NCBI GenBank assembly: GCA_025353195.1
Contig: JANXRC010000107.1
Span: 1 to 35,373 of the forward strand
Reading direction: 5' to 3'
DNA from: Rhodocyclaceae bacterium
GTDB lineage: Bacteria > Pseudomonadota > Gammaproteobacteria > Burkholderiales > Rhodocyclaceae
DNA length: 35,373 nt
Positions 8,091-22,789 of this stretch are shown here, piece by piece; position 1 is the stretch's first letter; each line of letters starts with the position of its first letter. Below the pieces are notes generated by a model, which saw only the letters and a list, made by a program, of their open reading frames with translations, made no database searches and had not been told where the DNA came from. Position numbers and translations under genes: made by a program.

Positions 8091-8288
8091 TCATGTCATC
8101 AGGGCGCCGCCGATCAGCGCCTCTGCTCTGTTGCCGATGATTATGCGGTCGCCTTCCAGTTTGCGCAAGCGGTTGAGGATACAAATGTTGAGGCCACAAA
8201 TCTCCGCCCAGCCGCATGGCAAACTGTCGTCGACTTCTGTCGGTTGCGCTACACTAAAACCTGACGCTGGAGGAAATCGAATCGCCAT
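8091..8288 (-). CDS. Possible small ORF directly upstream of livG (doubtful)
   Basis: A 65-codon frame starting MAIRFPPASGF and ending IIIGNRAEALIGGALMT stops 1 bp before the livG start codon, a spacing seen in coupled genes. The second half uses GC-ending codons like its neighbours. Against it are the absence of a recognised family, of a Shine-Dalgarno, and of any protein match I can name. Its ATG also overlaps the ATG of the divergent gene at 8287. It may simply be the leader of the liv operon. Confidence 0.2.
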   Translation of the reverse strand: MAIRFPPASGFSVAQPTEVDDSLPCGWAEICGLNICILNRLRKLEGDRIIIGNRAEALIGGALMT

Positions 8289-8607
8289 GATCCGACCTGC
8301 TGCCATGATCCTGCTTGGTGCCGGCGCGCTTGCGCTTGCCGGCGCACGGTCGACATTCGCTCAACCCGTCATACCGGGATCGACCGCGTTTTGCCTGTAC
8401 GAAGTTCCCGTCGATGAAACCGGCAAGCGGCGCTGGATCAATCTCGGCATCGTCCAGTATGTCGAGGCGACCCGCACCGAGGTGAAGATTGCCTACGGCG
8501 GGGGGGCCTTCGGCAGCGGCTACGACGCCAAAATCCCTGTCACCGGCATGGAAGAGGCCTTGACCGTAGTGGAGAAAATACGCAAGGTGGCTGCCGCCTG
8601 CCGTTGA
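8287..8607 (+). CDS. Small secreted protein of unknown function
   Basis: A 106-residue protein that I do not recognise. A clear signal peptide opens it (MIRPAAMILLGAGALALAGA, cleavage near TFAQ-PV), so the mature part of about 80 residues should be periplasmic. It contains two cysteines, one near the start of the mature chain (TAFCLYEVP) and one two residues from the end (AAACR), which could form one disulfide. The middle contains KRRWINLGIVQYVEATRTEV and a Gly-rich turn YGGGAFGSGYDAKIPV. GGAGG lies 13 nt before the ATG, which is rather far. The gene stands alone between two minus-strand operons and converges with the MFS gene 12 bp away. Confidence 0.75.
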   Translation: MIRPAAMILLGAGALALAGARSTFAQPVIPGSTAFCLYEVPVDETGKRRWINLGIVQYVEATRTEVKIAYGGGAFGSGYDAKIPVTGMEEALTVVEKIRKVAAACR

Positions 8608-8619
8608 CCGGGCGGGAGA

Positions 8620-9909
8620 TCAGATTTCGAAGGCCGCCTCGCGGCCGCGCTTTGCGTCGATGCCGATCAGCAGAACCAGACCGGCGACAAAATAGAGCCC
8701 GGTAACCGCCAGGGCCAGTCGGTGATTGCCGCCGGACAGCCAGGTCGTGAGGCCATAGGTCATCGGACCCGCGATGGCGGCCAGCTTCATGGCCAGACCC
8801 CAGAGGCCAAAGAATTCAGCTCGCCTTTGCCGTGGCGCGAACAGGCCCACCAGAGCGCGCGACGCCGACTGACTGGAGCCGAGACACAAGCCGGCGATAT
8901 TGGCGGCTACCCAGAACTGCTCACGACTATCGGAACTCAGGGCTATGGCGGTCATCAACAGCCAGCCGCACAGAGTCAGGGCGATGGTGCGCACGTGGCC
9001 GAACCGGTCCTGCAGGTAGCCGAACGCGAAGGCGCCGATCGCGGCCGTGCCGTTGACCACGAAGAACAGCTTGATGTTGTCCTCCGCCGTGAAGCCAATC
9101 GCCTCCTGCGCGTAGATGGCTGCCAGCGCAATGGCCGCGAAGACCCCGGACTGATAGAACAGCAGGCAAACCATGAAGCGCGCCATGTCCGGAAAGCGGC
9201 GCGCCTCGCGCGCGGTGCGCAACAGGCGTTGCGCCAGGGCGGACAGTTCCGCGCCGATCTCCGCCACCGGCCTTGCCTGTACCCGCTCGCGCAGCAAAAG
9301 GAAGGTCGGCGCCGAGGCCACGGCGAAGAAGGCGGCGGTGATCAGCATGGTGGCCGGCACAAAGCTCTCGGCCCCTTCGCCGCGGCTCTTGGCGGCGACG
9401 ATCCAGGCGAGGCATAGGCCAAGGCAGGCCATGCCGCCGAGATAGCCCCAGCTCCAGCCCCAGCCGGAAACCTTGCCCAGATCGTCCTCACCCGCCAGTT
9501 CCGGCAAAAAGGCGGCAATGATGTTTTCACTACTGCCGAAAAAGAAGCTCGATATCACCACCAGGGCCATGGCCAGCAGGACGTCACCGGGACCGACCCA
9601 GAACAGGCCGGCGGTGCCCGCCACGCAGCCAATCGTGGTTACGGCCAGCAACTTCTTCTTGGTTCCATGGCGGTCGGCATAGGCCCCGACGCCGGCAGCG
9701 GTCAGCATGATGGCAAGACTCGCAAGGGCCTGTGTCGTGGTCCAGGCCAGCGTCGCCCAGGGCGCGCCAGCCGCCACCACGGCCACGAAATAGGCATTGA
9801 AGATAGCCGTCACCACCGTGGTGGTGTAGGCCGAGTTGGCGAAGTCGTACATGGCCCAGGCCCACACCTCACGGACCTCGACGCCCTCGGCAAGAATCTT
9901 CCGGCTCAT
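8620..9909 (-). CDS. MFS transporter, UMF1/Atg22-like family
   Basis: A 429-residue integral membrane protein with about 12 hydrophobic segments. The sequence WAMYDFANSAYTTTVVTAIF near the N-terminus, ADRHGTKKK after the second helix pair, and FLPELAGEDDLGKVSGWGW with WGYLGG are characteristic of the UMF1 (Atg22-like) branch of the major facilitator superfamily. The ATG at 9909 overlaps the stop of the preceding ACP-ligase-acyltransferase gene by 4 bp (ATGA), with GGAAAG upstream, so the two are translationally coupled. The coupling to an acyltransferase recalls E. coli lplT-aas, where the MFS protein flips lysophospholipids for reacylation. A lysolipid substrate here is inference only. Confidence 0.85.
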   Translation of the reverse strand: MSRKILAEGVEVREVWAWAMYDFANSAYTTTVVTAIFNAYFVAVVAAGAPWATLAWTTTQALASLAIMLTAAGVGAYADRHGTKKKLLAVTTIGCVAGTAGLFWVGPGDVLLAMALVVISSFFFGSSENIIAAFLPELAGEDDLGKVSGWGWSWGYLGGMACLGLCLAWIVAAKSRGEGAESFVPATMLITAAFFAVASAPTFLLLRERVQARPVAEIGAELSALAQRLLRTAREARRFPDMARFMVCLLFYQSGVFAAIALAAIYAQEAIGFTAEDNIKLFFVVNGTAAIGAFAFGYLQDRFGHVRTIALTLCGWLLMTAIALSSDSREQFWVAANIAGLCLGSSQSASRALVGLFAPRQRRAEFFGLWGLAMKLAAIAGPMTYGLTTWLSGGNHRLALAVTGLYFVAGLVLLIGIDAKRGREAAFEI

Positions 9910-12713
9910 GGCGCGTGTCTTTCCAGATCGGGCTCGCCGCAGTACTTCAGGATTTCCGTCCGCGTCGCATCGCGCATCTGCAATGCGGCCTGCCATCCAT
10001 CGCCGGCCGCGACGATGGGCGCGCAGACCGTGACGCGAACCGTGCCGCGCCGGGGCAACCAGGATTCGTCGCGCAGGATCTCGCGGGTTCCGGCCATGGC
10101 CACCGGCGTCACGGCCAGTCCTTTCTGGATCGCGATCTGGAAAGCCCCCAGGCGAAAAGGTCGCAAGCCCGACTGACGGGTGAACGTCCCCTCGGCGAAG
10201 AAGAACAGGGGCCGCTGGCCGACAACCTCGGCCAGACGACGCACATCATCGACTCCCTGGCGCGCGTCGAAGCGCTCGACGAAGACCGCACCCAGACGGC
10301 GCAGCAGCGGACCGGCGAGCCGATGCGCAGCCAGCTCCTGTTTGGCGACAAAACCGACGGGCATCGGCAGCACCGCCGCCAGCACGATGCTATCGACATA
10401 GCTGGCATGATTGGCGACGAACACCCCGGTTGTTTTCATCATTTGCTCCAGCCCATCGACCTGCAAACGAATGCCGCACAGCCGCACGCAGCAACGTGCC
10501 ATTGCGCGCGCAAAGCGCCAGCGCAACACGACGCCGGGCAGCAGCAGGATGCCCGTCAGGGCGGGCAGGACCAGTAGGCCATACACACACCATGCATAGC
10601 CGCCGTAGAGCAGCTCCAGGCTGCGCCGCAAGGCTGCGCGCAGCCCCTGCCAGAAGCCGGCCAGACCAAGCCGAGCCACTTGCAGCCAGAGCGACCGGCT
10701 GCCACCGCCAAATCCTTCGCCGCAATACAGATCGCGCGTCGCGGAGCGCCGGATTTTGCCACTGGAAGTCTTCAGCACGGCGTGAGGCGGTGCCAGCACC
10801 ACATCGTCCGGCGGCGTGCCGAGCAGGTCCACGGCTAGTGCGTTGATGCGGTGCATCAGGTCCTGCCGCGCCACGGCATCCGTCTCGCGGCTTTCGGCCA
10901 CCACCACCAGTTTCTCGGTGCCCTGCCCCGCCACCGCCACGCCGAACACCGCGACGCAGCCGCGACGCACGCCGGGAATCGCGCCGACCGCTTCTTCGAG
11001 CTCGTAGGGATAGAGATTGCGTCCACCCCGAATGATGGTGTCCTTGATCCGGCCGGTAATGACAATGTCACCTTCGGCAAGATAGGCCAGATCGCCGGAG
11101 TCGAGCCAGCCGTCGCGGATCAGCTGGCGACTCGCCTCCGCGTTGCGGTAGTAGCCGCGCGTCGCCGACGGCCCGCGGAACTCGAGGCGGCCGACGCGAC
11201 GCGGCGCCAACTCACGGCCGCCGTCGTCGACGATGCGCACCTCGTGGCCCGGCAGCGGCCGGCCGCAGGCCACCAGTTGCAGCGCATGGAGATCATCGGC
11301 CGCGGCCGGAACCGCCTCGCCCGCAGCCAGCGGCTCGCGACGGACACGGTCGATCAGCGGCCCGCGGCCAGGCGGCGATACGGCGAGGCCGACCGAACAC
11401 TCGGCCAGACCATAGACCGGCGCCAGCGCATCGGCGCGAAATCCGTAAGGCGCGAAAGCTGCCGCGAAACGGGCCAGCGTCTCGGCCACTACCGGCTCGG
11501 CGCCATTTGCCGCGTAGCGCCAGGAGCTCAGGTCGAGGCCTTGCAGCTTGGCCGGATCGAGATGGCGCAGGCAGAGCTCGAAAGCGAAATTGGGCGCCGC
11601 GGTGACCGTGCCGCGATGCTGATGGATGGCCCACAGCCAGCGTTCGGGGCGCGCCAGGAAATCCAGCGGCGACATCAACACCAGCGGGCAGGCGTGATAG
11701 AGGCTGCCCAGCCAGGCACCGATCAAGCCCATGTCGTGATACAGCGGCAGCCAGCTGACCACTAAATCCGCGGGCGTCACTTGCACCGCCCGGCCATAGG
11801 CGCGGATGTTGGCCAGCAGGTTGCCGTGATCCAGCGTTACGCCCTTGGGATTGCCCGTGGAGCCCGAGGTGTATTGCAGCAGCGCGATGTCATCGCCACC
11901 ACCGCAATGATCTTCTCCGGATACCGCGGATGTTCCCGCTTCGCGCAGGTCAGCGGGCGTCGTCACCTCGCGCAGGCTGGGCACCAGACCGGAGAGAATC
12001 CGCGCCACCAGCCGCGCCGCGTCGAAGGTGATCAGCGCCGCCGCCTCGCAGTTCTGCAGGATGCCGGCCTGGCGGCGCAGATGGTCCTCGATCTGGCCCG
12101 GCCGCGTTGGCGGATAAATCGGCACCGGCACCGCACCGGCAAGCAGGATGCCGTAGAAGCTGTGAAAGAATTCGAGTCCCGTCGGCAACATCAGCGCCAC
12201 GCACTGACCCGGAACGATGCCGACCCGACGCAAGCCGGCAGCGACCTGCCGTGCAGTCTCCAGCAGCGTCCCGTAATCGAGCGTATCGGTTTCCGTGGCG
12301 CTGCGCTGAAAGAGGACATGCGGCCGCTGCGGATGCCGGCGAACATGCCATTGCAATACCTCGACCAGCGTCGCAGCCTGGTCAGGGTTGCCCTCCTCGA
12401 CCTTGGCCGGAGCTTCCCACGGCGCTTGATTGACCGCTACTCCTGGCGCAACCGGTGCAGTGGCCGCCATTGCCAGCAGCAAATCACGCGGCGTTTCCGC
12501 GGAACCCAGCAGATCATCGGCCAGGCGAACACCAAAAGCCTGCTCGATGCGCGCCAGAAGTTCCACCCGGGCCAGGCTGTCGAGCCCCAGATCCCGGTCC
12601 AGCGAGCTGTCCAGCCCGGCCTTCGAGCGCCCGGCCGGGCGCACTTCAGTCACCAGCCGATCTACGATGGACAGCAGTTGCGCCGCCTGATCTAGCGCCG
12701 GAACCTGCTCCAT
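9906..12713 (-). CDS. Three-domain protein: acyl carrier, acyl-AMP ligase (FAAL-like) and PlsC acyltransferase
   Basis: A 935-residue fusion. Residues 10-85 form an acyl-carrier domain with the phosphopantetheine serine at 46 (LGLDSLARVEL). Residues 115-660 form an AMP-forming ligase with YTSGSTGNPKGV (281-292), WLPLYHDMGLIG, GLAECSVG, ITGRIKDTIIRGGRNLYP and the catalytic Lys653 in SSGKIRR; the style is close to fatty acyl-AMP ligases. Residues 700-735 are hydrophobic. Residues 750-920 form a PlsC-type acyltransferase with NHASYVD (His769, Asp774; HX4D) and FFFAEGTFTR (841-843). The simplest reading is that the protein activates a fatty acid, loads it on its own carrier domain, and transfers it to a lysolipid or glycerolipid at the inner membrane. 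This resembles E. coli Aas, but with the domain order reversed and a built-in ACP. All key residues are intact. No strong Shine-Dalgarno is visible. Confidence 0.88.
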   Translation of the reverse strand: MEQVPALDQAAQLLSIVDRLVTEVRPAGRSKAGLDSSLDRDLGLDSLARVELLARIEQAFGVRLADDLLGSAETPRDLLLAMAATAPVAPGVAVNQAPWEAPAKVEEGNPDQAATLVEVLQWHVRRHPQRPHVLFQRSATETDTLDYGTLLETARQVAAGLRRVGIVPGQCVALMLPTGLEFFHSFYGILLAGAVPVPIYPPTRPGQIEDHLRRQAGILQNCEAAALITFDAARLVARILSGLVPSLREVTTPADLREAGTSAVSGEDHCGGGDDIALLQYTSGSTGNPKGVTLDHGNLLANIRAYGRAVQVTPADLVVSWLPLYHDMGLIGAWLGSLYHACPLVLMSPLDFLARPERWLWAIHQHRGTVTAAPNFAFELCLRHLDPAKLQGLDLSSWRYAANGAEPVVAETLARFAAAFAPYGFRADALAPVYGLAECSVGLAVSPPGRGPLIDRVRREPLAAGEAVPAAADDLHALQLVACGRPLPGHEVRIVDDGGRELAPRRVGRLEFRGPSATRGYYRNAEASRQLIRDGWLDSGDLAYLAEGDIVITGRIKDTIIRGGRNLYPYELEEAVGAIPGVRRGCVAVFGVAVAGQGTEKLVVVAESRETDAVARQDLMHRINALAVDLLGTPPDDVVLAPPHAVLKTSSGKIRRSATRDLYCGEGFGGGSRSLWLQVARLGLAGFWQGLRAALRRSLELLYGGYAWCVYGLLVLPALTGILLLPGVVLRWRFARAMARCCVRLCGIRLQVDGLEQMMKTTGVFVANHASYVDSIVLAAVLPMPVGFVAKQELAAHRLAGPLLRRLGAVFVERFDARQGVDDVRRLAEVVGQRPLFFFAEGTFTRQSGLRPFRLGAFQIAIQKGLAVTPVAMAGTREILRDESWLPRRGTVRVTVCAPIVAAGDGWQAALQMRDATRTEILKYCGEPDLERHAP

Positions 12714-12748
12714 GGCTTCAACGACGCCGTATCACCAGCGCCGACTCT

Positions 12749-13543
12749 TCAGCAGCCCTTCCACTCCGGTTTGCGCTTCTGCATGAAGGCATCAATGCCT
12801 TCTGCCGCGTCGTCGGCCATCATGTTGCAGGCCATGGTTTCCGACGCCAGCTGGTAGGCGCCGTCGAGACCCATTTCGAGCTGCTTGTAGAACATCTGCT
12901 TGCCCATCCCGATGGCTACTGCCGACTTGGCGCAGATCGAATCGGTGAGCTTTTTCACTTCGGCATCGAGTTGTTCGAGCGGCACCACGCGATTGATCAG
13001 GCCGCGCCGCTGGGCCTCGGCGGCGTCGATGAAGTCGCCGGTCAGCAGCATTTCCATCGCCTCTTTGCGGCCCATGGCGCGTCCCAGCGCGACCGAGGGC
13101 GTGGAGCAGAAGAGGCCGACGTTGATGCCGGACACCGCGAACCGCGCACCCTCCGCCGCCACTGCCAAATCGCACATGGCGACCAGTTGGCAACCCGCGG
13201 CCGTGGCGATGCCGTGGATCCGCGCGATTACCGGCTGCGGCATTTCGACGATGGTCATCATGACCTTGCCGCAAGCCTTGAACAGTTTCTGCATGTAGGC
13301 CTTGCTGTGGTTGGCGCGCATCTGCTTCAGATCATGGCCGGCACAAAACGCCTTGCCGGCGCCGGCGATCACTACGGTCCGCACCGCCTTGTCCCCGGCT
13401 ATGGCGTCTAGCGCCGCTTGCAGTTCGGCCAGCATTTCTTCCGAAAGCGAATTGAACTGGGTCGGACGGTTGAGCGTCAGGGTCGTCACGCCATCCCTGT
13501 CCTCGCGCATCAGGATCGGCAATGTGGATTCGGGTGCATTCAT
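12749..13543 (-). CDS. Enoyl-CoA hydratase/isomerase-family protein lacking both usual catalytic glutamates
   Basis: A 264-residue crotonase-fold protein of normal length. The oxyanion-hole segments AGAGKAFCAGHDLKQM and IHGIATAAGCQLVAMCDLAV are present. At the position of hydratase Glu144 (GGGCELA in rat) there is Gln (AAGCQLV). At the position of Glu164 (GQPEILLG) there is Gly (AVSGINVG). The chain resembles the ECHDC3 branch, whose reaction is not well defined. It should bind an acyl-CoA or acyl thioester but probably does not hydrate enoyl-CoA in the standard way. AAGGAG 8 nt before the ATG fixes the start. It lies 30 bp after the penicillin-acylase gene and 35 bp before the ACP-ligase-acyltransferase gene. 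Confidence 0.88.
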   Translation of the reverse strand: MNAPESTLPILMREDRDGVTTLTLNRPTQFNSLSEEMLAELQAALDAIAGDKAVRTVVIAGAGKAFCAGHDLKQMRANHSKAYMQKLFKACGKVMMTIVEMPQPVIARIHGIATAAGCQLVAMCDLAVAAEGARFAVSGINVGLFCSTPSVALGRAMGRKEAMEMLLTGDFIDAAEAQRRGLINRVVPLEQLDAEVKKLTDSICAKSAVAIGMGKQMFYKQLEMGLDGAYQLASETMACNMMADDAAEGIDAFMQKRKPEWKGC

Positions 13544-13573: not shown

Positions 13574-15991
13574 TCATTTTGCCGCAGAGCGGCCTTGAAG
13601 TACCAATTTATGCTCGCCCTTGCCCCATAGCGGCAGATCGCCGACGGCAGCCCATGGCGCTACAAAGCGGCGGTAGTCGGGTGCGAGGACCAGGCCGGAC
13701 TGCCCGCTGGAGTGCATCACGCCGGAATTTGCGGGATCGCCCAGATCGTAGATTGCGCGCAGGCTGGCGGCGTGCTCGTTGAGATAGGGCTCGTCGCCCT
13801 TCAGAAGATGGCGGGCGACATTGATCGTGTAGTTGTCGCCGCCGGTGGCAACGCGCAGTTCGAACCATGGGGCGAGCGCCTTGACCATCGAGAACGGCCG
13901 GTGCTCCGAACGCGCCTGATGCACCGCGCCCCACTGCCAGCGCGCAATGTCCGTGCCGAGGCGCTGCTGCAATTCGTCGAGCGCGCGATCCAGCGAGCGG
14001 CTGACCAGTTCGGCGCAAGCTTCAACCGCCGGCGTGGTCTTGTCGTCGCACCACCATGCATCGTTTCTTTCGAGAACGCCTTCGAGTGCGGCACGGAAAT
14101 CGCTGCGCCCGACCTGGCGCAGGTACGCCTCATTGCCCCCCATTTCATCGGCAAATACGGCCCGCGTCATCTCTCTCGCCCAAGCCGCGAAGATCAGCGG
14201 CGCCGCATCGTCGGCACGCATTTCGCCGTCGAAGGCAGCCAGCCGCTGCATCGCCGCAGCGCCGAGGGCGTGGGTCGGTTTGGCCTGGCGCAGCCACGGC
14301 AGCAGGCGCTGCGCGGCCAGCGACATCACGTCGCCCTGAATCCGGCGCAGGCTTTCCTTGTCGTGCTTCGGCCTGGCCTTGAGCAAGCTTTCAATGCGTT
14401 CCTGGCGATACGGCACCGCCCATTCGCTGGTGATGTAATACGGATAGTCGGCGCTGGTGATACGGTGATTGGCGGTGGCGATCCAGCCACGCGACGGATT
14501 GATCTCGCGCGGCGTCCGGCCTGGATCGAGAAAACCGGCCCAGTCGTAGCGTGGCTCCCAGCCCGGCGCCGGAACGAGCCCATGCAGGTCGTTGTCGGCG
14601 CGACGCAGCGGCACACGACCGGCGGCGACGAAACCGATATTGCCGTCGACATCGGCCACCACCATGTTCTGCATCGGCGCCACGTGCTTTTCCACCGCAG
14701 CGATGAACTCCGCCACCGATCCGGCGCGATTCATCGCCAGCCCCGCATCGATGCCTCCGGCGTCGACGTCCAGCGCCGTCCAGCGCAGCGCCAGCGCGTA
14801 GGTGGGAGCAGCCGCATTTCCGGTCAGGCCGGCAACGGCTGCAGTCCCTGCATCCGAAATCACCGGCCCGTGGCGGGTGGCACGGACCGTCAGCTTGACC
14901 TCGCCCTGCCCCTTGACGCGAATGATTTCGCTGAACGATTGAAACTCGGCCCAGCCGTCCGGCGTTCGATAGCGCGAGGCATCGCCCGGCTTGATCTGCT
15001 CCAGATAGACGTCCTGCACATCCGGATTGGTGTTGGTCGCGCCCCAGGCGATGCGTTCATTCTGTCCCAGCACGACGAAGGGAAACCCGGGCATGGTGGC
15101 CCCGGCCACCTTCAACCCGGGTGCTTCGAGGCGCGCGAAGTACCACAGTGCCGGCGCCGTCAACTTGAGATGCGGATCGTTGGCCAGCAGCGGCTTGCCG
15201 GACACGGTATGCGATCCGGCGACCACCCAGTTGTTCGAACCGACGCCTTCGACACCGGATTCGGGCGCATCGAGCAGCGCCTGCTGTCCGAGTTCGCCAC
15301 CGACTTTCAACTCACGATACAGCGCGGCGTAGTCACGCACCGGCAACGGCTTCTCGCCCGGGTAGGGCGGCAGCAACTGGTCGATGCGAGCCACCGGCAT
15401 GGTCAGGGCGAGACGCATGCGCAGCAACTCATTGCTCCAGTTGCCGCCGAGATCCCAGGCCATCATGATGCCCCAAGCCAGAGTGTCTTCCGGTGTCCAT
15501 GGTTCGGGGTCGAGGCCGAGGATCAGGAATTCCGGGGGGCGCGCCCGCACGTGTCCGCTGATGAAGGCGTTGATGCCGGCGGTATAGGCTAGCACCGCAG
15601 CCCGTGCGTCGCCGCCGAGTTTCTCCCATTGCGCTGCTGCCGCGCGGCGGACGCCGAGCGCCCGCAGGAACTTGTCGTTGTCCAGCGCGCCCGGCCCGAA
15701 TGCTTCTGAAAGCCGCCCGGAGCCGATGCGGCGATGCGTGTCGAGTTGCCACAGGCGATCCTGCGCATGGACGAAGCCGAGACCGAACAGCACCGCATCG
15801 CGATTCGCGCCGCGCACGGTCGGAATGCCCGCTGCGTCACGCTCGATGCTGACCTCGCCGGCCAGACCGCCGACCTCGAGCCGGCCCTCCGTCACCGGCG
15901 CTGCGCGCTGCCACCAGATCACGACAGCGATGACCGCCACGCCGAGCAGCAGAAAAACTACAGCCGCGACACGCGGCAGCCAGGTCCTCAT
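13574..15991 (-). CDS. Penicillin acylase-family Ntn hydrolase (N-acyl amide hydrolase), membrane-anchored or secreted
   Basis: An 805-residue precursor of the penicillin amidase family. Residues 7-28 form one hydrophobic segment (signal anchor or signal peptide). The alpha-chain region has VSIERDAAGIPTVRGANRDA and LGFVHAQDRLWQLD. The autocatalytic cleavage point precedes Ser252 in GVGSNNWVVAGSHT, which would become the N-terminal nucleophile of the beta chain. Further family blocks are LLANDPHLKL, PGFPFVVLGQNERIAWGATN and the Asn of the oxyanion hole. The family hydrolyses amide-linked acyl groups, including acyl-homoserine lactones, beta-lactam side chains and other N-acyl compounds. Placement among lipid genes suggests release of a fatty acid from an N-acyl lipid or signal, which is inference. 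The gene begins 10 bp after the acyl-CoA synthetase stop. Confidence 0.92.
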   Translation of the reverse strand: MRTWLPRVAAVVFLLLGVAVIAVVIWWQRAAPVTEGRLEVGGLAGEVSIERDAAGIPTVRGANRDAVLFGLGFVHAQDRLWQLDTHRRIGSGRLSEAFGPGALDNDKFLRALGVRRAAAAQWEKLGGDARAAVLAYTAGINAFISGHVRARPPEFLILGLDPEPWTPEDTLAWGIMMAWDLGGNWSNELLRMRLALTMPVARIDQLLPPYPGEKPLPVRDYAALYRELKVGGELGQQALLDAPESGVEGVGSNNWVVAGSHTVSGKPLLANDPHLKLTAPALWYFARLEAPGLKVAGATMPGFPFVVLGQNERIAWGATNTNPDVQDVYLEQIKPGDASRYRTPDGWAEFQSFSEIIRVKGQGEVKLTVRATRHGPVISDAGTAAVAGLTGNAAAPTYALALRWTALDVDAGGIDAGLAMNRAGSVAEFIAAVEKHVAPMQNMVVADVDGNIGFVAAGRVPLRRADNDLHGLVPAPGWEPRYDWAGFLDPGRTPREINPSRGWIATANHRITSADYPYYITSEWAVPYRQERIESLLKARPKHDKESLRRIQGDVMSLAAQRLLPWLRQAKPTHALGAAAMQRLAAFDGEMRADDAAPLIFAAWAREMTRAVFADEMGGNEAYLRQVGRSDFRAALEGVLERNDAWWCDDKTTPAVEACAELVSRSLDRALDELQQRLGTDIARWQWGAVHQARSEHRPFSMVKALAPWFELRVATGGDNYTINVARHLLKGDEPYLNEHAASLRAIYDLGDPANSGVMHSSGQSGLVLAPDYRRFVAPWAAVGDLPLWGKGEHKLVLQGRSAAK

Positions 15992-16001
15992 CGCCCGGCG
16001 T

Positions 16002-17639
16002 CTATTCGAAGGAAGTGGCTGATTTGGCTTTTTCCCGCAGCACGAATTTCTGTATCTTCCCCGTCGAGGTCTTGGGCAAGGCTTCGAAAATGAAATGCTT
16101 GGGCACCTTGAAGCGCGCCATGCGTTCGCGGCAGAACGCGGTCAGTTCTTCCGCCGTGACGCTGGCTCCGTCACGCACTTCGATAAAGGCACAAGGCACC
16201 TCGCCCCACTTCGCATCGGGCGTGGCGACCACGGCGGCGCCCATCACCGCCGGATGGCGATACAGCGTATCCTCGACCTCGATCGAGGAGATGTTCTCGC
16301 CGCCGGAAATGATGACGTCCTTGCTGCGATCCTTGATCTTGATGTAGCCGTCGGGCTGCATCACGGCCAGATCGCCGGTGTGATACCAGCCGCCATGAAA
16401 GGCCTCCGCGGTCGCCGTCGGATTCTTCAGGTAGCCCTTCATCACGATGTTGCCGCGGAACATGATCTCGCCCATGGTCTGGTCATCCCAGGGCACTGGC
16501 TGCATGGTCTCCGGATCCATCACGGTGATGCCTTCCTGACAATGGTAACGCACGCCCTGGCGGCCGTTCAGGCGCACCTGCTCATCGAGCGGCAGATCCA
16601 GCCATTCGTCGTGTTTGGCGCAGACCGCGGCCGGGCCGTAGGTTTCGGTCAAGCCATAGACGTGGGTGATGTTGAAGCCGATCTGCCCCATGCCTTCAAT
16701 CACGGCGGCCGGCGGCGGCGCGGCGGCCACCAGCGCCGAGACCTTGTGGTTGATGCCCTCGCGCCACGCCGCCGGCGCGTTGATCAGCATCGAATGCACG
16801 ATCGGCGCACCGCAGTAATGGCTGACCTTGTGTTCCCGAATGGCATCGAGAATCAGCTTCGGATCGACGCGGCGCAGGCAGACATTGGTACCGGAATTGG
16901 CCGCGACGGTCCACGGGAAGCACCAGCCGTTGCAATGGAACATCGGCAGTGTCCACAGATACACCGATTGCGGCGGCATGCCCCATGAGACGATGTTGGA
17001 CAGCGCATTGAGGTAAGCGCCGCGGTGGTGATACACCACGCCTTTGGGATTACCGGTAGTACCCGAGGTGTAGTTGAGCGATATCGCTTCCCACTCGTCC
17101 GTCGGCGTCTTCCACTCATAATCGGGGTGACCGCCGGCCAGCAGGGTTTCATAGTCGATGCTGCCGACACGCTCGCCGGGGCCGGAGTACTCCGGATCAT
17201 CGACATCGATGACCAGTATCTGGCGACCCAGTTCGGCCAGGGCCTTCTTCACCATGGCCGAATACTCGCGGTCGGTGATCAGTACCTTGGCTTCGCCATG
17301 GTTGAGCATGAAGGCAATCGACTCGGCGTCGAGTCGCGTATTCATGGTGTTGAGCACTGCCCCGCACATCGGCACGCCGAAATGGCACTCGAACATCTCC
17401 GGCGTGTTGTTGAGCATCGCCGCCACCGTATCGCCGGCGCCGACTCCATGCGCCGCCAGTGCGGATGCCAGGCGCCGGCTGCGCTCGTACTCCTGGTCCC
17501 AGGTAAAGCGGCGCTGGCCGTGGATCGTCGCCACCCGCTCCGGATAGATGTATGCCGAACGCTCGATGAAGGTCAGCGGCGTCAGCGGAACATAGTTGGC
17601 CGGATTCTTGTCCAGTCCGGTGGCATAGGGATTGCTCAT
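16002..17639 (-). CDS. Medium/long-chain acyl-CoA synthetase (AMP-forming)
   Basis: A 545-residue AMP-forming ligase of full length. Motifs are YTSGTTGNPKGVVYHHRGAY (P-loop), LPMFHCNGWCFPW, HVYGLTETYGPA, the GWYHTGDLAVMQPDGYIKI hinge region, DRSKDVIISGGENISSIEVE and the catalytic Lys near the end in KTSTGKIQKFVLR. This pattern is that of the FadD/DmdB-like acyl-CoA ligase group, which forms acyl-CoA from a carboxylic acid, ATP and CoA. The start at 17639 has AGAGGG 8 nt upstream. It follows the lipoprotein gene by 21 bp and precedes the penicillin-acylase gene by 10 bp, fitting use of a fatty acid in the same pathway. The 3-methylmercaptopropionate ligase activity known in this group cannot be excluded. 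Confidence 0.93.
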   Translation of the reverse strand: MSNPYATGLDKNPANYVPLTPLTFIERSAYIYPERVATIHGQRRFTWDQEYERSRRLASALAAHGVGAGDTVAAMLNNTPEMFECHFGVPMCGAVLNTMNTRLDAESIAFMLNHGEAKVLITDREYSAMVKKALAELGRQILVIDVDDPEYSGPGERVGSIDYETLLAGGHPDYEWKTPTDEWEAISLNYTSGTTGNPKGVVYHHRGAYLNALSNIVSWGMPPQSVYLWTLPMFHCNGWCFPWTVAANSGTNVCLRRVDPKLILDAIREHKVSHYCGAPIVHSMLINAPAAWREGINHKVSALVAAAPPPAAVIEGMGQIGFNITHVYGLTETYGPAAVCAKHDEWLDLPLDEQVRLNGRQGVRYHCQEGITVMDPETMQPVPWDDQTMGEIMFRGNIVMKGYLKNPTATAEAFHGGWYHTGDLAVMQPDGYIKIKDRSKDVIISGGENISSIEVEDTLYRHPAVMGAAVVATPDAKWGEVPCAFIEVRDGASVTAEELTAFCRERMARFKVPKHFIFEALPKTSTGKIQKFVLREKAKSATSFE

Positions 17640-17660
17640 GGGGTTTCCCTCTCAGAGTGG

Positions 17661-18269
17661 TTAGTAAGTGCGGCAACGTTCGACGATGGCAGGCTTCTCG
17701 CGCCCCGTTGTCTCCAGCCATGCCCCCAGATCGTCGGCCAGAGCCTGTACCGCATCGCGCGTTGCGGCCGCCCCGCCTCCTGCAGTCGCGCTTGCCGCCG
17801 GTTTCTGGATCAGGAAGGTCCGCCTGGAAATCGTCTCTGCGCTGCGCAAGGGTGTCAATAGCGCGCGAACTTCGAGCACCTGCATGCTGCCTTGCGGATC
17901 ATCGTAGCGCTGCTCCAGTTCGTCGAGAACCAGTTGCAGGCGACAGCCGGCGCTGCTTACGTCGGGCTGCCCGAACACGATCCGGCGCTTCAGAAAAACC
18001 TCCAGCAATTCGGCGGGCGGTGCCGCCCAGCGGCTTTCCGCATAGCTCTGGCGACGCAGGGGCTCGGCATAGGCAAGTCGATAATGCATGTCCGCACCGG
18101 AGAGCCACGACGACGCCTGCACATCGACCGCTGCAATTGCGATGCGCGACCCCGTCCAGTTGCCCGCCAGGCTGCCAAAATCGTAGCGAACCGGTTCGGT
18201 CGTTCGCACATTGCCGCCGCAGGCCGCCAGCAGGAGGCCTGCAAGAATCGACACTACCCGCTTCATCAT
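17661..18269 (-). CDS. ABC-type transport auxiliary lipoprotein (PqiC/DUF330-like)
   Basis: A 202-residue lipoprotein. The lipobox LLLAAC places the lipidated cysteine at residue 17 (signal MMKRVVSILAGLLLAAC). The body has the pattern of the ABC-type transport auxiliary component family, with PVRYDFGSLAG at the start and RLQLVLDELEQRYDD in the middle, and a C-terminal Cys in VERC. Such lipoproteins sit at the outer membrane beside MCE (MlaD-like) proteins and help lipid passage across the periplasm. GGGAGGAG precedes a double ATG. The first overlaps the mlaD-like stop as ATGA; the second, 3 nt later, has better spacing and may be the true start. Confidence 0.83.
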   Translation of the reverse strand: MMKRVVSILAGLLLAACGGNVRTTEPVRYDFGSLAGNWTGSRIAIAAVDVQASSWLSGADMHYRLAYAEPLRRQSYAESRWAAPPAELLEVFLKRRIVFGQPDVSSAGCRLQLVLDELEQRYDDPQGSMQVLEVRALLTPLRSAETISRRTFLIQKPAASATAGGGAAATRDAVQALADDLGAWLETTGREKPAIVERCRTY

Positions 18270-19213
18270 CGCACTCCTCCCTGTTTGATTGGTGCTGCAA
18301 AGCCTGCCTCACCCGGGCCCGGCGATGCTTCGCCACGGCCGAATAGCAACATCTGCGGGTTACTCTCAAGGCCGTCCAGAACGCGCGACAGCTGCCGCGA
18401 ATTGGTCGCCAGCTCACGCATCAGCGCGTTGGCGCGTGGCAGCGTGCCGGTCGTCAGTTCATCGCCGGTGCTGCTTACCAGCTGATCGAATCGATGCGAC
18501 AGGGCGCTCATCGACTTGACCAATTCGCGTATTTCCGCGGTGAGTGGCGCGCTCTCCCCCGCCGTCTTTTCGACATGCACCAGAATCTGCCGCAAGTTGC
18601 GCATATTGCTGTCGGAAAGCGCCTCGCGCACCGATGCCAGAATGGCAGGCATCTCGCGCAAGCCATCCGACGCCGTGGCCACATTTTCCAGCGCGCGCGA
18701 GAGGTTCTGCACGTTCTTCTCGTCCAGCACTTTGGCCAGCCGCAACGATGCCGTGCTGATCTGGTTCACGATGTCGCCTGCCTTCTCATCCAGCGTGTCG
18801 AACAAGGTGGGCCGCAATGCAATGCGGGGCGTTTTGCCGCCCTTCCCCACCAGCGGCTCGATCGAAGAACCATCATCTTCGATCTGTACATAGGCCAGGC
18901 CCGTAACGCCCTGGTAGCCTAGTTGGGCGGTGCTGCCGCGGGTCAGCTTGAAGCGGTTGTCGAGGTTGATGCGCACCAGGATCACTCGCGGATCGGCTTG
19001 ATCCGGCTCGATGGCTTCCACCTTGCCGGCGCGAATGCCGCGATAGCGCACCTGCGCCTGGACGTTGAGTCCGGTCACGTTTCGCCGCGTTTCCAGAAGA
19101 TAGGTTGTCGTCGACTCGTCGCTCTGCCCCAGCCACCAGATTGCAACGGCGGAGGCAAGGCCGAGCAGAAGGGTGAAGATTCCGGCGGCCAGCGCGTGGG
19201 ATCGGTTTTCCAT
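18266..19213 (-). CDS. mlaD: MlaD-family (MCE domain) lipid-transport protein
   Basis: A 315-residue protein with one N-terminal membrane anchor (residues 8-29), then a single MCE domain, about residues 38-115 (TTYLLETRRNVTGLNVQAQV, VRYRGIRAGKVEAI, GYQGVTGLAYVQIE). A long mostly helical tail follows, up to residue 300. MCE proteins form hexameric periplasmic rings that carry phospholipids or other hydrophobic compounds for MlaE/MlaF-type ABC transporters. The tail is much longer than in E. coli MlaD (about 180 residues in all), so the protein may reach further across the periplasm. It lies between the ATPase gene (12 bp) and the lipoprotein gene (4-bp overlap). Confidence 0.9.
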   Translation of the reverse strand: MENRSHALAAGIFTLLLGLASAVAIWWLGQSDESTTTYLLETRRNVTGLNVQAQVRYRGIRAGKVEAIEPDQADPRVILVRINLDNRFKLTRGSTAQLGYQGVTGLAYVQIEDDGSSIEPLVGKGGKTPRIALRPTLFDTLDEKAGDIVNQISTASLRLAKVLDEKNVQNLSRALENVATASDGLREMPAILASVREALSDSNMRNLRQILVHVEKTAGESAPLTAEIRELVKSMSALSHRFDQLVSSTGDELTTGTLPRANALMRELATNSRQLSRVLDGLESNPQMLLFGRGEASPGPGEAGFAAPIKQGGVR

Positions 19214-19225
19214 GGTTCGGCGCTT

Positions 19226-20011
19226 TCAGTGCGGCGCCGCCGCGAGCCCGGAATGTTGCAAGGCTCGTACGCTGCGCTCGGAAAGGAAGAAGTTGCGAAT
19301 GAAAGGATGGTCAATTTGCATGATTTCCTCAGTGGTGCCATAAGCCAGGATGTGTTGCTCGGCGAGCACGGCGACACGCGTGGAGAGTGCCGCCAGTGTA
19401 TCGAGGTCATGCGTGACCAGCATGACGGTGAGGCCCAATTCTTCGCCCAGCATGCGGATCAGCCGCACAAAACTGTCGGAACGATCCGGATCGAGGCCGG
19501 CGGTCGGCTCGTCGAGCAGCAGCAATTCCGGCTCGAGCGCCAGTGCGCGCGCCAGCGCGACGCGCTTGATCATGCCGCCGGAAAGTTCGGCCGGCATCAG
19601 CTTGCCATGGCGCGGCAGCAGTTCGACCATGGACAGCTTGAGCATCACCAGATCATGAATGGCATCCTCGTCGTAGCGTTTCAGTTCGCGCAAGGGGAAA
19701 GCGATGTTGTCGAACACGTTGAACGCAGAAAACAGCGCGCCCTGCTGAAACAACACGCCGAAGCGCTGCCGCAACTCGCGTTCGCGCGCGACGCCGCCGC
19801 CAAACAGGGGCTCACCGAAAATCTCGATGCTGCCGCTGGCAGGCAGGAGCAAGCCGACCACCATCCGCAGCAGCGTGGTCTTGCCGCTGCCGGAACCGCC
19901 CACCAGCGAAACCAGTTCGCCGCGCTGAATGTCGAGGTCGAGCCCCTTGTGAATCCACACCTCGCCGAAGCGGGTGGAGAGATCGCGAATTCGGATGACA
20001 GGCGTCGTCAT
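19226..20011 (-). CDS. mlaF: MlaF-type ABC transporter ATPase for lipid transport
   Basis: A 261-residue ABC ATPase. The ATG at 20011 was preferred because the protein then begins MTTPVIRIRDLSTRFGE, as in the family, and it lies 10 bp after the permease stop. Walker A is GGSGSGKTTLLRM (Lys44). The segment FGVLFQQGALFSAFNVFDN, the signature AELSGGMIKRVALARALALE and Walker B ELLLLDEPTAGLDP are the form typical of Mla/Ttg2A ATPases, not amino acid importers. It powers lipid movement by the adjacent MlaE-type permease. Confidence 0.93.
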   Translation of the reverse strand: MTTPVIRIRDLSTRFGEVWIHKGLDLDIQRGELVSLVGGSGSGKTTLLRMVVGLLLPASGSIEIFGEPLFGGGVARERELRQRFGVLFQQGALFSAFNVFDNIAFPLRELKRYDEDAIHDLVMLKLSMVELLPRHGKLMPAELSGGMIKRVALARALALEPELLLLDEPTAGLDPDRSDSFVRLIRMLGEELGLTVMLVTHDLDTLAALSTRVAVLAEQHILAYGTTEEIMQIDHPFIRNFFLSERSVRALQHSGLAAAPH

Positions 20012-20021
20012 GGCTGTGCAC

Positions 20022-21140
20022 TCATCCCGGCAGGCCGATGCTACGGGTGGCGACAGCAAACAAGGCGTCGATCACAATCACCACCGTGATCGCCGAGACC
20101 ACCGAAGCCGTCGTGTTGCTCGACAGGCTTTCCGTGTTGGGTCGCACCCTGAGACCGAAATGGCAGGCAATCAGTGCAACGAACATGCCGAATACCGTGC
20201 CCTTGACCAGACCGATCCACAGGTTGGCCGCCGGCACGACACGTGGCAGGGTCTGGAAGAAGAACCCGTAGGAGATGTCGAGTTGCAACTGCGCCGAGAG
20301 CATGCCGCCGATCAGCGCTATCGCGGTGCTCCACAGTACCAGCAGCGGCATGGCGATGGTCAGCGCCACCACCTTGGGAAAGATCAGCCGCAGCCCGCGC
20401 GGAACGCCCATCGTCGCCAGCGCATCGATTTCCTCGGTAACGCGCATCACGCCCAGTTGCGCCGTCATCGCAGAACCGGAACGCCCGGCAACCAGAATCG
20501 CTACCAGAACCGGCCCGAGCTCCCTGATGATGCCGAGGCCGATGATATTTACGATAAAGATATCCGCCCCGAACTGCTTGAGCTGCAGGGCCGACAGGTA
20601 GGAAAGCACGACGCCGATCAGAAAGCCTACCAGCGCGGTAACCGGCATCGCGCGCACGCCGCTCTTGTACAGGTTGGCCGAAATCTCCCGGCGCGGAAGC
20701 TCGGCGGGGTTGCGCAGGACATGCGCCAGATCCAAGCCGAATTGCCCCACCATGGCAACAAAATCGACCAGATGACGACCAATGCCGATCACGACCGTGC
20801 CGAGGAACATCACGCCGTGCAGGGGTGAAACCGGCACGATCGCCGCCCGCGGCTCGTGGTCGGCAGTATCAATGCGTTCGAAGACCCGCCAATGCTCCGG
20901 TTTGATCGACAACTGGAGCGGCAAGGCGCGACCCCAGGCGCGCCAAAGCAATATGGCGCCGGCGCTGTCAATCGCCTCAAGGTCGAGGCAGTCCCAGTTG
21001 CTGTCCGCATCGGCAACGCGACTCAGTTCCTCGGCCAATCCCGCAGCACGCCGTGAAGTGGTTGCCACCGTCCACCGTCCGGAGAGCTTGACAACGCGTC
21101 CGCCTTCGCGAACGATCACTTCAATGCGCGCGATGGACAT
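20022..21140 (-). CDS. mlaE: MlaE-type lipid ABC permease with an N-terminal STAS domain
   Basis: A 372-residue protein. Residues 1-95 form a soluble STAS-like domain (RVVKLSGRWTVATT, WDCLDLEAIDSAGAILLWRA), equivalent to MlaB fused to the permease. Residues 105-372 are the MlaE permease, with about five or six membrane segments and the blocks LVGFLIGVVLSYLSALQLKQ, GIIRELGPVLVAILVAGRSG, AEIDALATMGVP-like (EEIDALATMGVPRG) and GLVKGTVFGMFVALIACHFG. It would move lipids between the inner membrane and the MCE protein. The fusion removes the need for a separate mlaB gene. A perfect TATAAT lies 39-44 nt upstream of the ATG, so this is the likely first gene of the lipid operon. Confidence 0.93.
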   Translation of the reverse strand: MSIARIEVIVREGGRVVKLSGRWTVATTSRRAAGLAEELSRVADADSNWDCLDLEAIDSAGAILLWRAWGRALPLQLSIKPEHWRVFERIDTADHEPRAAIVPVSPLHGVMFLGTVVIGIGRHLVDFVAMVGQFGLDLAHVLRNPAELPRREISANLYKSGVRAMPVTALVGFLIGVVLSYLSALQLKQFGADIFIVNIIGLGIIRELGPVLVAILVAGRSGSAMTAQLGVMRVTEEIDALATMGVPRGLRLIFPKVVALTIAMPLLVLWSTAIALIGGMLSAQLQLDISYGFFFQTLPRVVPAANLWIGLVKGTVFGMFVALIACHFGLRVRPNTESLSSNTTASVVSAITVVIVIDALFAVATRSIGLPG

Positions 21141-21189: not shown

Positions 21190-21213
21190 GCCTCATGTCC
21201 GGCGACATCAGGC
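21190..21213. promoter_or_regulatory. Imperfect inverted repeat at the ppx stop, upstream of the mla-operon -10
   Basis: GCCTCATGTC (21190-21199) faces GACATCAGGC (21204-21213) with one C/C mismatch and a CGGC loop. It includes the ppx stop codon and lies just upstream of the TATAAT at 21179-21184, where a -35 or operator would sit. It could be an mRNA 3'-end hairpin for ppx or a protein-binding dyad; the sequence does not decide. No U-tract follows. Confidence 0.4.
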
Positions 21214-22692
21214 CTCGCGATGAATCCGCAGTTCGCTGCCGATGCCAGCCCATTGCTGCGCTTCGTCCTCCAGCGTAGCGGCGGTGAGCGGCAATGCCTC
21301 CAGCCCGCAAGCGCCCAGCTTCAACTGAAATCCGTTGCGGGTGAGTCCGATGGAAAGCGGCGGCAAGGGCTGGTCGTCGCGCGATCGATGCAGCAAGACG
21401 GCAACCCGCAAACACAGGATCAACGTCCATTCCGGAGCTTCTCCGCGCAAGGGCTGGGCTCGTTCCAGCTTGCCGCGATGCGCCAGCACCAGCCGCGAGA
21501 GGCGCGCCTGATCCCGCCGGGAGAATCCCGGCATGTCGGCGTTGGCGATGACGTAGGCGCTGTGTTTGTGATAGCTCGAATGCGCCACGGATATCCCGAC
21601 CTCATGCAAACGCGCAGCCCAGACCAGGAATTGCGCGTCCGGATGCCCCGCCTCCTGGCTCGCGGGGACCATCTGATGGAACAACCCGACTGCGGTATGA
21701 GCGACACGGGCCGCCTGCCGCCGGTCCACCTGGTAGCGCTGCATGAACAGATTCACCGTGGCTTCGCGCAGATCGTCGTGATGATAGCGGCCAAGTTGGT
21801 CATACAGCACGCCGAGGCGAAGGGCTCCTTCGGAGAAGACCATGCGCTCCAGCCCGAACTCCTTGAATACGGCTGACATGATCGCCAACCCGCCCGGCAG
21901 CACCGGAATCCGGTCGGCGCGCAGGCCCTGCAGGCGCATGTGCGAGGCATCACCGGCGTGCAGCAGTTCGTTGCGCAACTTCTCCAGTCCCTCGCGAGTG
22001 ATGCCGTGATCCGAAAGACCGTTCAATTCGAGCAGATCGACAATGGCCTTGGCCGAACCCGATGAGCCGATCGCCTCGTCCCAGCCCGTCTTGCGATAGA
22101 CATGGACGATGGCCTGCAACTCGCGCCGTGCTGCCAGTTCGGCTTCCTTGAACGAACGCTTGTCGACGCGTCCTTCCGGAAAGAAGCGCAGGCTGTAGCT
22201 GACACAGCCCATGTAGAGCGACTCCAATTGAATCGGATCGATGTTCTGGCCGATGATGAATTCGGTGGAGCCACCGCCTATATCGACCACCAATTGGCGC
22301 GTCTGCGGATTGGCCAGAGTGTGGGCAACGCCGAGATAAATCAAGCGCGCTTCTTCACGCCCGGCAATCACTTCGATGGGAAAACCCAGGGCGGCCTCGG
22401 CCTTTTCCAGGAACTGCCCGGCGTTCTTCGCCACCCGCAAGGTGTTGGTCGCCACCGCACGGACGGCTCCCTGGTCGAAATCACGCAAGCGTTCGCCGAA
22501 GCGCGACAGCGCCTCTATACCGCGCTGCTGGGCCGCCGCGTCGAGCCGCTTGTCGGGGGTCAAGCCCGCGGCAAGCCTTACCGACTCCTTGAGCCCGTCA
22601 AGAGGGTAGATCTGGTTGGCCACAATCCGCCCCACTTGGAGGCGAAAGCTGTTGGAGCCGAGATCGACCGCAGCAATCAGTTCGTAGGCCAT
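21208..22692 (-). CDS. ppx: Exopolyphosphatase / guanosine pentaphosphate phosphatase family (Ppx/GppA)
   Basis: A 494-residue protein of the ASKHA fold. ATPase-like motifs are AAVDLGSNSFRLQVGRIV (residues 8-25), AVATNTLRVAKNAGQFL, the catalytic Glu region AGREEARLIYLGVAHTL, and VVDIGGGSTEFIIGQN. The C-terminal half carries the HD-like helical domain with AARLHEVGISVAHSSYHKHS. The enzyme removes terminal phosphates from polyphosphate or from pppGpp. AGGAGGT 11 nt upstream supports the ATG at 22692. It is divergent from ppk, which makes the polymer this enzyme degrades. The usual polyphosphate role is favoured over GppA by that linkage. Confidence 0.94.
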   Translation of the reverse strand: MAYELIAAVDLGSNSFRLQVGRIVANQIYPLDGLKESVRLAAGLTPDKRLDAAAQQRGIEALSRFGERLRDFDQGAVRAVATNTLRVAKNAGQFLEKAEAALGFPIEVIAGREEARLIYLGVAHTLANPQTRQLVVDIGGGSTEFIIGQNIDPIQLESLYMGCVSYSLRFFPEGRVDKRSFKEAELAARRELQAIVHVYRKTGWDEAIGSSGSAKAIVDLLELNGLSDHGITREGLEKLRNELLHAGDASHMRLQGLRADRIPVLPGGLAIMSAVFKEFGLERMVFSEGALRLGVLYDQLGRYHHDDLREATVNLFMQRYQVDRRQAARVAHTAVGLFHQMVPASQEAGHPDAQFLVWAARLHEVGISVAHSSYHKHSAYVIANADMPGFSRRDQARLSRLVLAHRGKLERAQPLRGEAPEWTLILCLRVAVLLHRSRDDQPLPPLSIGLTRNGFQLKLGACGLEALPLTAATLEDEAQQWAGIGSELRIHREA

Positions 22693-22726
22693 GGATTGAT
22701 TCTACCTCCTGCTCCAGGTTTGATTC

Positions 22727-22760
22727 GTGTCATGATGCGGCAATAAAATTGAAACATAAT
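22727..22760 (+). promoter_or_regulatory. Candidate Pho box and -10 for ppk
   Basis: GTGTCAT (22727-22733, 6 of 7 to CTGTCAT), 4 nt, then CGGCAAT (22738-22744, 4 of 7) form a weak PhoB-type direct repeat. Ten nt later is CATAAT (22755-22760), 5 of 6 to TATAAT. The distance from box to -10 is that expected of PhoB-activated promoters, and no -35 hexamer is present. The second half-site is poor, so this is tentative. Confidence 0.4.
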
Positions 22761-22789
22761 TATCCGATTCGAATCGTCTGAAAGCCGTC

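Follow-up and report, generated by a model that had tools for sequence, protein, structure and literature searches.

The closest described counterpart of the gene pair considered here is LplT-Aas of Escherichia coli (lplT, b2835; aas, b2836), in which, as in our pair, a major facilitator superfamily (MFS) gene overlaps a gene for an acyl-activating protein with a PlsC-type acyltransferase domain, by 8 bp in strain K-12, and for which the relevant passages of PMC11416262 propose that the lipid is flipped first and then acylated. The two activities are likewise joined, there physically, in fused MFS-PlsC-AMP proteins of about 1,140 residues (NCBIfam PRK08633/PRK06814). The pertinent section of PMC8926400 presents Pseudomonas aeruginosa PA3267 as a combination of LplT with the acylation domain of Aas, and a role of PA3267 against lipase effectors is supported in the corresponding part of a 2025 study (PMC12663445). 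Here, we describe a gene pair in a 35,373-nucleotide stretch of DNA (the window) from Rhodocyclaceae bacterium (GCA_025353195.1, contig JANXRC010000107.1, positions 1 to 35,373 of the forward strand; genome label G000). One gene encodes a 935-residue fusion of an acyl carrier protein (ACP) domain, a fatty acyl-AMP ligase (FAAL)-type ligase, and a PlsC-type acyltransferase; the next encodes an MFS transporter of the ATG22/UMF1 type. With moderate confidence, we propose that this pair probably does the work of LplT-Aas with other proteins and belongs to neither family.

All three domains of the fusion exceed their Pfam gathering scores (Table 1). Ser46 of the carrier domain, Lys653 of the ligase (in a KTSSGK motif that starts at residue 648), and His769/Asp774 of the acyltransferase, which a preliminary description of this DNA had assigned to one protein, were located by string search and are, like Asp45, invariant in all 51 aligned relatives of the fusion; the C-terminal part of the ligase extends to Lys653, at about position 10755. 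Judged from its sequence, the ligase is FAAL-type, as had been claimed, because its best NCBIfam models are FAALs (NF006624 at 424.4 bits, under the cut-off of 600), its nearest solved chains, both by sequence and by predicted fold (Foldseek), are FAALs, and its CoA-rejecting residues are invariant. According to the part of PMC8460268 concerned with it, the CoA pocket of EcFAAL is blocked by W224, M231, and F279; by hand count in an alignment with 3pbk, whose chain index runs one below the residue numbering of that paper, these correspond to W321, M328, and F376 of the fusion, conserved in 51 of 51 relatives. The alignment, also consulted for the FAAL-specific insertion, is almost gap-free past residue 440. 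Ligase fold and CoA-rejecting residues are common to the fusion, EcFAAL (3PBK), and the Synechococcus OLS FAAL (7R7E-G), but only in the fusion does a PlsC acyltransferase share the chain with the ligase. Fusions of FAAL-like domains with lysophospholipid acyltransferases appear in one sentence of the Conclusions of an eLife 2021 paper, which gives them no function there (PMC8460268), and in a 2025 FAAL review (PMC11837247) a term search turned up neither phospholipid nor membrane lipid nor PlsC.

The C-terminal domain is of the PlsC type: it exceeds the PF01553 cut-off, carries its HX4D motif as NHASYVD, and matches a solved 1-acylglycerol-3-phosphate acyltransferase (PDB 5kym, E 1.2e-10). 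We consider it quite likely that the fusion is a self-loading acyltransferase acting on a lipid acceptor. It is not an Aas protein. E. coli Aas has its PlsC domain (15-137) ahead of the AMP-binding domain (233-568) and uses free ACP, whereas the fusion has the order ACP-FAAL-PlsC; an N-terminal PlsC domain followed by an acyl-ACP synthetase in about 720 residues, by which Aas is recognized, is absent from it, and the PlsC domains of the two proteins fall in different clades. The altered domain order and the built-in carrier noted in the preliminary description are thus borne out by the Pfam coordinates.

With the ATG at 9909 taken as its start, the MFS gene shares 4 bp with the end of the fusion gene, stop codon included, again as reported earlier; the longest open reading frame (ORF) begins farther upstream, at 9996. 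Its product is a member of the ATG22 family (PF11700; cut-off, 24.1 bits) and also matches MFS_1 (77.4 bits) and MFS_2 (46.8 bits), and an AlphaFold2 model has an MFS fold with a mean predicted local distance difference test score of 87.8. LplT, by comparison, matches MFS_1 only, and a profile of 150 ATG22-type loci gave no match on two LplT sequences, so that homology beyond the common MFS fold was not found and the transporter does come from another MFS branch. We take PF11700 to be equivalent to Transporter Classification family 2.A.1.24. In the relevant part of PMC3924187, bacterial ATG22/UMF1 transporters (2.A.1.24) are listed with unknown substrate. A literature search, with most subscription journals outside its reach, found no paper linking ATG22/UMF1 transporters with lysolipids or phospholipid acyltransferases in bacteria.

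Genes for this transporter family and for acyltransferases are linked more often than background. Our 150 MFS loci comprise all 128 places in a sample of the class, the window's own place excluded (L138-L156, L158-L266), and 22 from the family sample or from loci gathered before it (L100, L118-L137, L157). A PlsC profile gave 24 hits in these loci, 14 of them within 250 bp of the MFS gene and the others either within a large protein next to it or separated from it by one gene (L140, L195, L225). Beyond 4 kb there was none in 541,044 bp, and control loci held a single PlsC hit outside the fusion in 1,172,462 bp. Since the profile was built from its own hits, their high scores follow from its design, and it may miss PlsC genes that have diverged. 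The class sample by itself has a hit in 22 of 128 loci; without five loci picked for the fusion, PlsC lies near the MFS gene in 19 of 145 loci, from 14 families. Six of the 19 are Aas (L185, L195, L216, L231, L234, L248; L231 called by NCBIfam, the others by tblastn), with the PlsC and AMP parts in separate frames in L185. Four are proteins of the order AMP ligase-ACP-PlsC (AMP-ACP-PlsC; Pfam-checked in L187 and L266, assigned by tblastn and the PlsC tree in L174 and L176), and nine are stand-alone PlsC.

In the PlsC tree, the Aas domains form one clade and the AMP-ACP-PlsC domains another, eight of the nine stand-alone proteins group together, and the fusion domains stand apart, in a group into which E. 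coli PlsC falls on a very long branch. The label for a PlsC neighbor changes about 20 times over the MFS tree, at least 13 of these changes being forced by well-supported (starred) branches, and therefore the association has either many origins or a history of repeated retention and loss. Each tree comes from one search, and the large MFS tree is a quick tree that omits the partial L139.

The AMP-ACP-PlsC proteins, of about 900 residues (L187:3293-5986 and L266:7348-10077; also L174 and L176), represent another acyltransferase that includes its own carrier domain and was assembled separately. They resemble the window fusion in that carrier, in a C-terminal PlsC domain, and in adjoining the same MFS family, but differ in having the carrier between ligase and PlsC, AMP-binding_C domains, CoA-ligase models as best matches, and PlsC domains of a separate clade.

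No other function emerged from the MFS loci that lack PlsC, whose neighbors include RecG, UbiA, penicillin-binding protein, MraW, RapZ, ParB, release factor 3, ClpB, deformylase, and valyl-tRNA synthetase. In 12 of the 150 loci, the release factor 3 gene (prfC) is the first or second gene upstream of the MFS gene (e.g., L243:7470-9068).

For the fusion itself, we sampled 150 genomes of the window's family and 321 of its class; the co-occurrence p values are not corrected for kinship, by which the family sample is clustered. Within the family, the fusion occurs in 53 genomes, the MFS in 32, and both in 20, versus 11.3 expected (p 0.0006); within the class, the numbers are 53, 128, and 31, versus 21.1 expected (p 0.003). 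The two genes are adjacent in 5 of the 20 family genomes that have both (four of one genus; in G036 the MFS gene lies upstream) and, in the class sample, in G000, G458, and G249, with 1.9 kb between them in G214. Among 80 named fusion loci the MFS is the immediate neighbor in 18, namely, twelve of the Sulfuritalea group (downstream), four of Nitrosomonadales or related (divergent), and two of Acidobacteriota (downstream); in L033 the MFS gene is cut, and in L049 one gene separates the pair. Extended to 103 fusion loci, five of which (L128, L137-L140) were picked because both genes lay near, the count is 22, with all four arrangements represented (15 downstream on the same strand, 4 upstream opposite, 2 upstream same, 1 downstream opposite). 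Fifteen other families recur as neighbors of the fusion, and a second arrangement was seen only for a GGDEF/EAL sensor.

Outside the window's clade, 20 neighbors of the fusion examined by Pfam belong to unrelated families, among them TctC, UDP-glucose dehydrogenase, AtuA, PGA_cap, serine hydroxymethyltransferase, NfeD, and diaminopimelate epimerase, and no common pathway could be derived from them; in many genomes the fusion is near-monocistronic in mixed surroundings. In 8 of 103 loci (L058, L062, L065, L069, L114, and three more; Pfam in L062), the next gene downstream of the fusion encodes a serine hydroxymethyltransferase.

The distribution of LplT and Aas bears on which importer the fusion may serve. 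The window's genome has an LplT homologue (C70:24272-25474; L098:8270-9535), 41% identical to E. coli LplT and beside a LysR-type gene, and no match to Aas at E <= 1e-60, and the same holds for three sampled genus mates. Given LplT without detected Aas, the partner of the fusion may be LplT, either alongside the new MFS or in place of it. Elsewhere, the ATG22-type gene lies directly beside Aas, at 11 to 144 bp, in five genomes (G184, G192, G273, G333, G440), none of which has an LplT match at E <= 1e-25, a match found in 34 of 321 class genomes. From this gene position we infer that the ATG22-type transporter stands in LplT's place beside Aas, and these five genomes provide the strongest sign that suggests a lysolipid role. 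G355 has both situations, one Aas with LplT adjoining and a second Aas with an ATG22-type gene 1.4 kb away. The possibility that the MFS part of the fused MFS-Aas proteins is itself of the ATG22 type was ruled out, as it is LplT-type in seven of seven and none matches the ATG22 profile; an eighth locus fetched for such a protein (L275) gave no profile hit. Within the family, MFS and Aas avoid each other (2 genomes versus 9.4 expected, p 0.0008), a kinship-clustered result that we do not use as evidence and that runs opposite to the class, in which MFS genes are found next to Aas.

On our reading, the ligase would make acyl-AMP from a free fatty acid, the acyl group would be loaded onto Ser46 of the fusion's own carrier, and the PlsC domain would pass it to a lysophospholipid. 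Because the carrier sits in the same chain, the likely path runs from fatty acid through acyl-AMP and acyl-carrier to the acceptor. The MFS would carry the lysolipid across the inner membrane, out of the periplasmic leaflet and into the cytoplasmic one. The transporter would thereby take the part of LplT and the fusion that of Aas, the MFS parts being nonhomologous and the acyltransferases sharing only domain families. The chances that the window MFS moves lysolipid appear evenly balanced to us, and those that both proteins operate as a unit, as a lysolipid re-acylation module, lie slightly below that.

Several observations weigh against this reading. Fusion and MFS genes lie apart in 15 of the 20 family genomes that have both, 12 of 32 family genomes with the MFS have no fusion, and eight of eight near relatives in the Sulfuritalea group that have the fusion but no neighboring MFS gene lack an MFS match at E <= 1e-15. 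In view of the first and the last of these counts, the word "coupled" in the preliminary description is too strong for the pair as whole genomes present it, although the linkage above background stands. The proposed recurrence of a UMF1-type gene beside the three-domain fusion is similarly mixed: against the count in 103 loci stands none among 18 family loci fetched for the fusion (L099, L101-L117). In 126 of the 150 MFS loci there was no PlsC hit. An LplT homologue is kept in the window's genome, so that there is no default need for another importer. LplT is also unmatched in 56 of 84 genomes with Aas, and its absence from five of five genomes with adjacent Aas and MFS genes is therefore weak by itself. 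Of 150 family genomes, 11 have both the fusion and Aas, versus 15.5 expected (p 0.095), an avoidance that amounts to a weak tendency, and the notion that the fusion strictly replaces Aas was dropped. The function ascribed to the family is amino acid efflux, by yeast Atg22. Finally, fold matches of the MFS model are unspecific, with VMAT1, MCT8, and OxlT ranking first and MFSD2A at ranks 41 and 50; because many MFS folds score alike, an attempt to derive a substrate from the modeled pocket was dropped and none is read from the model.

Some of these points would fit a fusion that acylates lysolipid imported by the genome's LplT homologue, with the MFS carrying an unrelated solute and linked only by operon position. 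The fusion could then be the missing Aas partner of that homologue, and the eight near relatives would manage without the MFS; the repeated position of the MFS family beside four kinds of PlsC-type proteins, including Aas without detected LplT, is what makes us regard this as rather unlikely. Less likely still, the fusion might make a dedicated acyl lipid or acylated metabolite rather than repair phospholipids, and the MFS might export the product or a precursor. The FAALs described in the relevant part of PMC8460268 serve dedicated lipid and natural-product pathways, and a near-monocistronic fusion suits a self-contained enzyme. Yet neither the genes of the window's array nor the 20 Pfam-scanned immediate neighbors include a ketosynthase, nonribosomal peptide synthetase, or assembly-line gene, and Aas, the function of which is known, has the same MFS neighbor.

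We consider it improbable that the MFS is an effluxer of amino acids or small molecules, like yeast Atg22, placed here by chance or housekeeping synteny. Its Pfam family and the many MFS loci beside the housekeeping genes recG/ubiA, prfC, def, clpB, and valS would speak for such a role; chance, however, fails to explain PlsC in 19 of 145 loci when control DNA has one hit per 1.17 Mb, and the occurrence of MFS and fusion in all four arrangements is likewise at odds with it.

Extending the re-acylation reading beyond the window leads to a stronger and newer statement on the whole transporter family, which we offer tentatively and consider doubtful as yet. ATG22/UMF1 might be, besides LplT, another family that imports lysophospholipids, and its members might have come together independently with four or more kinds of PlsC protein (ACP-FAAL-PlsC, AMP-ACP-PlsC, stand-alone PlsC, and Aas itself, beside which they would replace LplT). 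By the same speculative extension, eukaryotic Atg22 might export not only amino acids but also lysolipids from the vacuole, the site of autophagic membrane breakdown. If true, a large MFS family whose function is unknown would acquire a testable class of substrates, and lysolipid repair would prove to have been put together on several occasions from different transporters and acyltransferases. Possible import of lysolipids by bacteria that have Aas but no detected LplT would then be explained too, as would the re-acylation of lipids in bacteria without Aas, such as that of the window. With its own carrier, the fusion would be a convenient single-chain enzyme for studies of fatty acid salvage without CoA or free ACP.

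Table 1. Genes of the window's minus-strand array and domains of the fusion, with the supporting matches
Feature	Position	Strand	Evidence
ATG22/UMF1-type MFS transporter, 429 aa from ATG at 9909	8620..9909	-	PF11700 136.4 bits; AlphaFold2 MFS fold; 4-bp overlap with fusion
ACP-FAAL-PlsC fusion, 935 aa	9906..12713	-	Pfam; NCBIfam FAAL models best but under cut-off; Foldseek top matches are FAAL structures
Fusion acyl-carrier domain, residues 33-78, with Ser46	12480..12617	-	PF00550 (PP-binding) 37.5 bits, cut-off 20.8
Fusion acyl-AMP ligase, N-terminal part (FAAL-type), residues 120-522	11148..12356	-	PF00501 (AMP-binding) 244.9 bits
Fusion PlsC-type acyltransferase domain, residues 750-873, HX4D 769-774	10095..10466	-	PF01553 (Acyltransferase) 81.1 bits, cut-off 23
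Enoyl-CoA hydratase family gene	12749..13543	-	NF006008 433.8 bits, cut-off 313; 35 bp from fusion
Penicillin-amidase-family (Ntn hydrolase) gene	13574..15991	-	PF01804 746.5 bits
Acyl-CoA synthetase	16002..17639	-	NF006020 985.3 bits, cut-off 677
ABC_trans_aux lipoprotein of lipid transporter	17661..18269	-	PF03886 30.4 bits, cut-off 26
MlaD/MCE protein	18266..19213	-	PF02470 55.3 bits
MCE-system ATPase (MlaF-like)	19226..20059	-	PF00005; best NCBIfam model MlaF 195.6 bits, below cut-off 441
MlaE-family permease	20022..21140	-	PF02405 229.3 bits; TIGR00056 214.6 bits, cut-off 212.2

Fusion and MFS genes stand at the end of an array of nine minus-strand genes, separated by gaps of at most 35 bp or by short overlaps, which run in the order MlaE-family permease, ATPase, MlaD/MCE protein, auxiliary lipoprotein, acyl-CoA synthetase, penicillin-amidase-family gene, enoyl-CoA hydratase, fusion, and MFS. 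We infer that they form one transcript. The interval of the preliminary description, up to 13543, takes in the enoyl-CoA hydratase gene, which its text omits, and the array from 13574 to 21140 went unnoted. The nine-gene order is shared by L001-L003 and L005, and L014, L018, and L020 have the same order without the amidase and without the MFS. The MlaE/MlaD-type transporter, acyl-CoA synthetase, enoyl-CoA hydratase, and acylase could supply or dispose of envelope lipids and fatty acids. Gene calls in the locus scripts are mechanical ORF picks.

At the head of the array, a four-gene lipid ATP-binding cassette transporter (MlaE, ATPase, MlaD, and auxiliary lipoprotein; 17661-21140) is followed by the acyl-CoA synthetase gene. 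The penicillin-amidase-family gene, between the acyl-CoA synthetase and enoyl-CoA hydratase genes, could release acyl groups from amides. Between the MFS gene and a livG-like gene lies a small plus-strand ORF (8131-8607) with relatives in 15 related loci, and just upstream of the array, at 21208-24874, are divergent genes for an exopolyphosphatase and a polyphosphate kinase.

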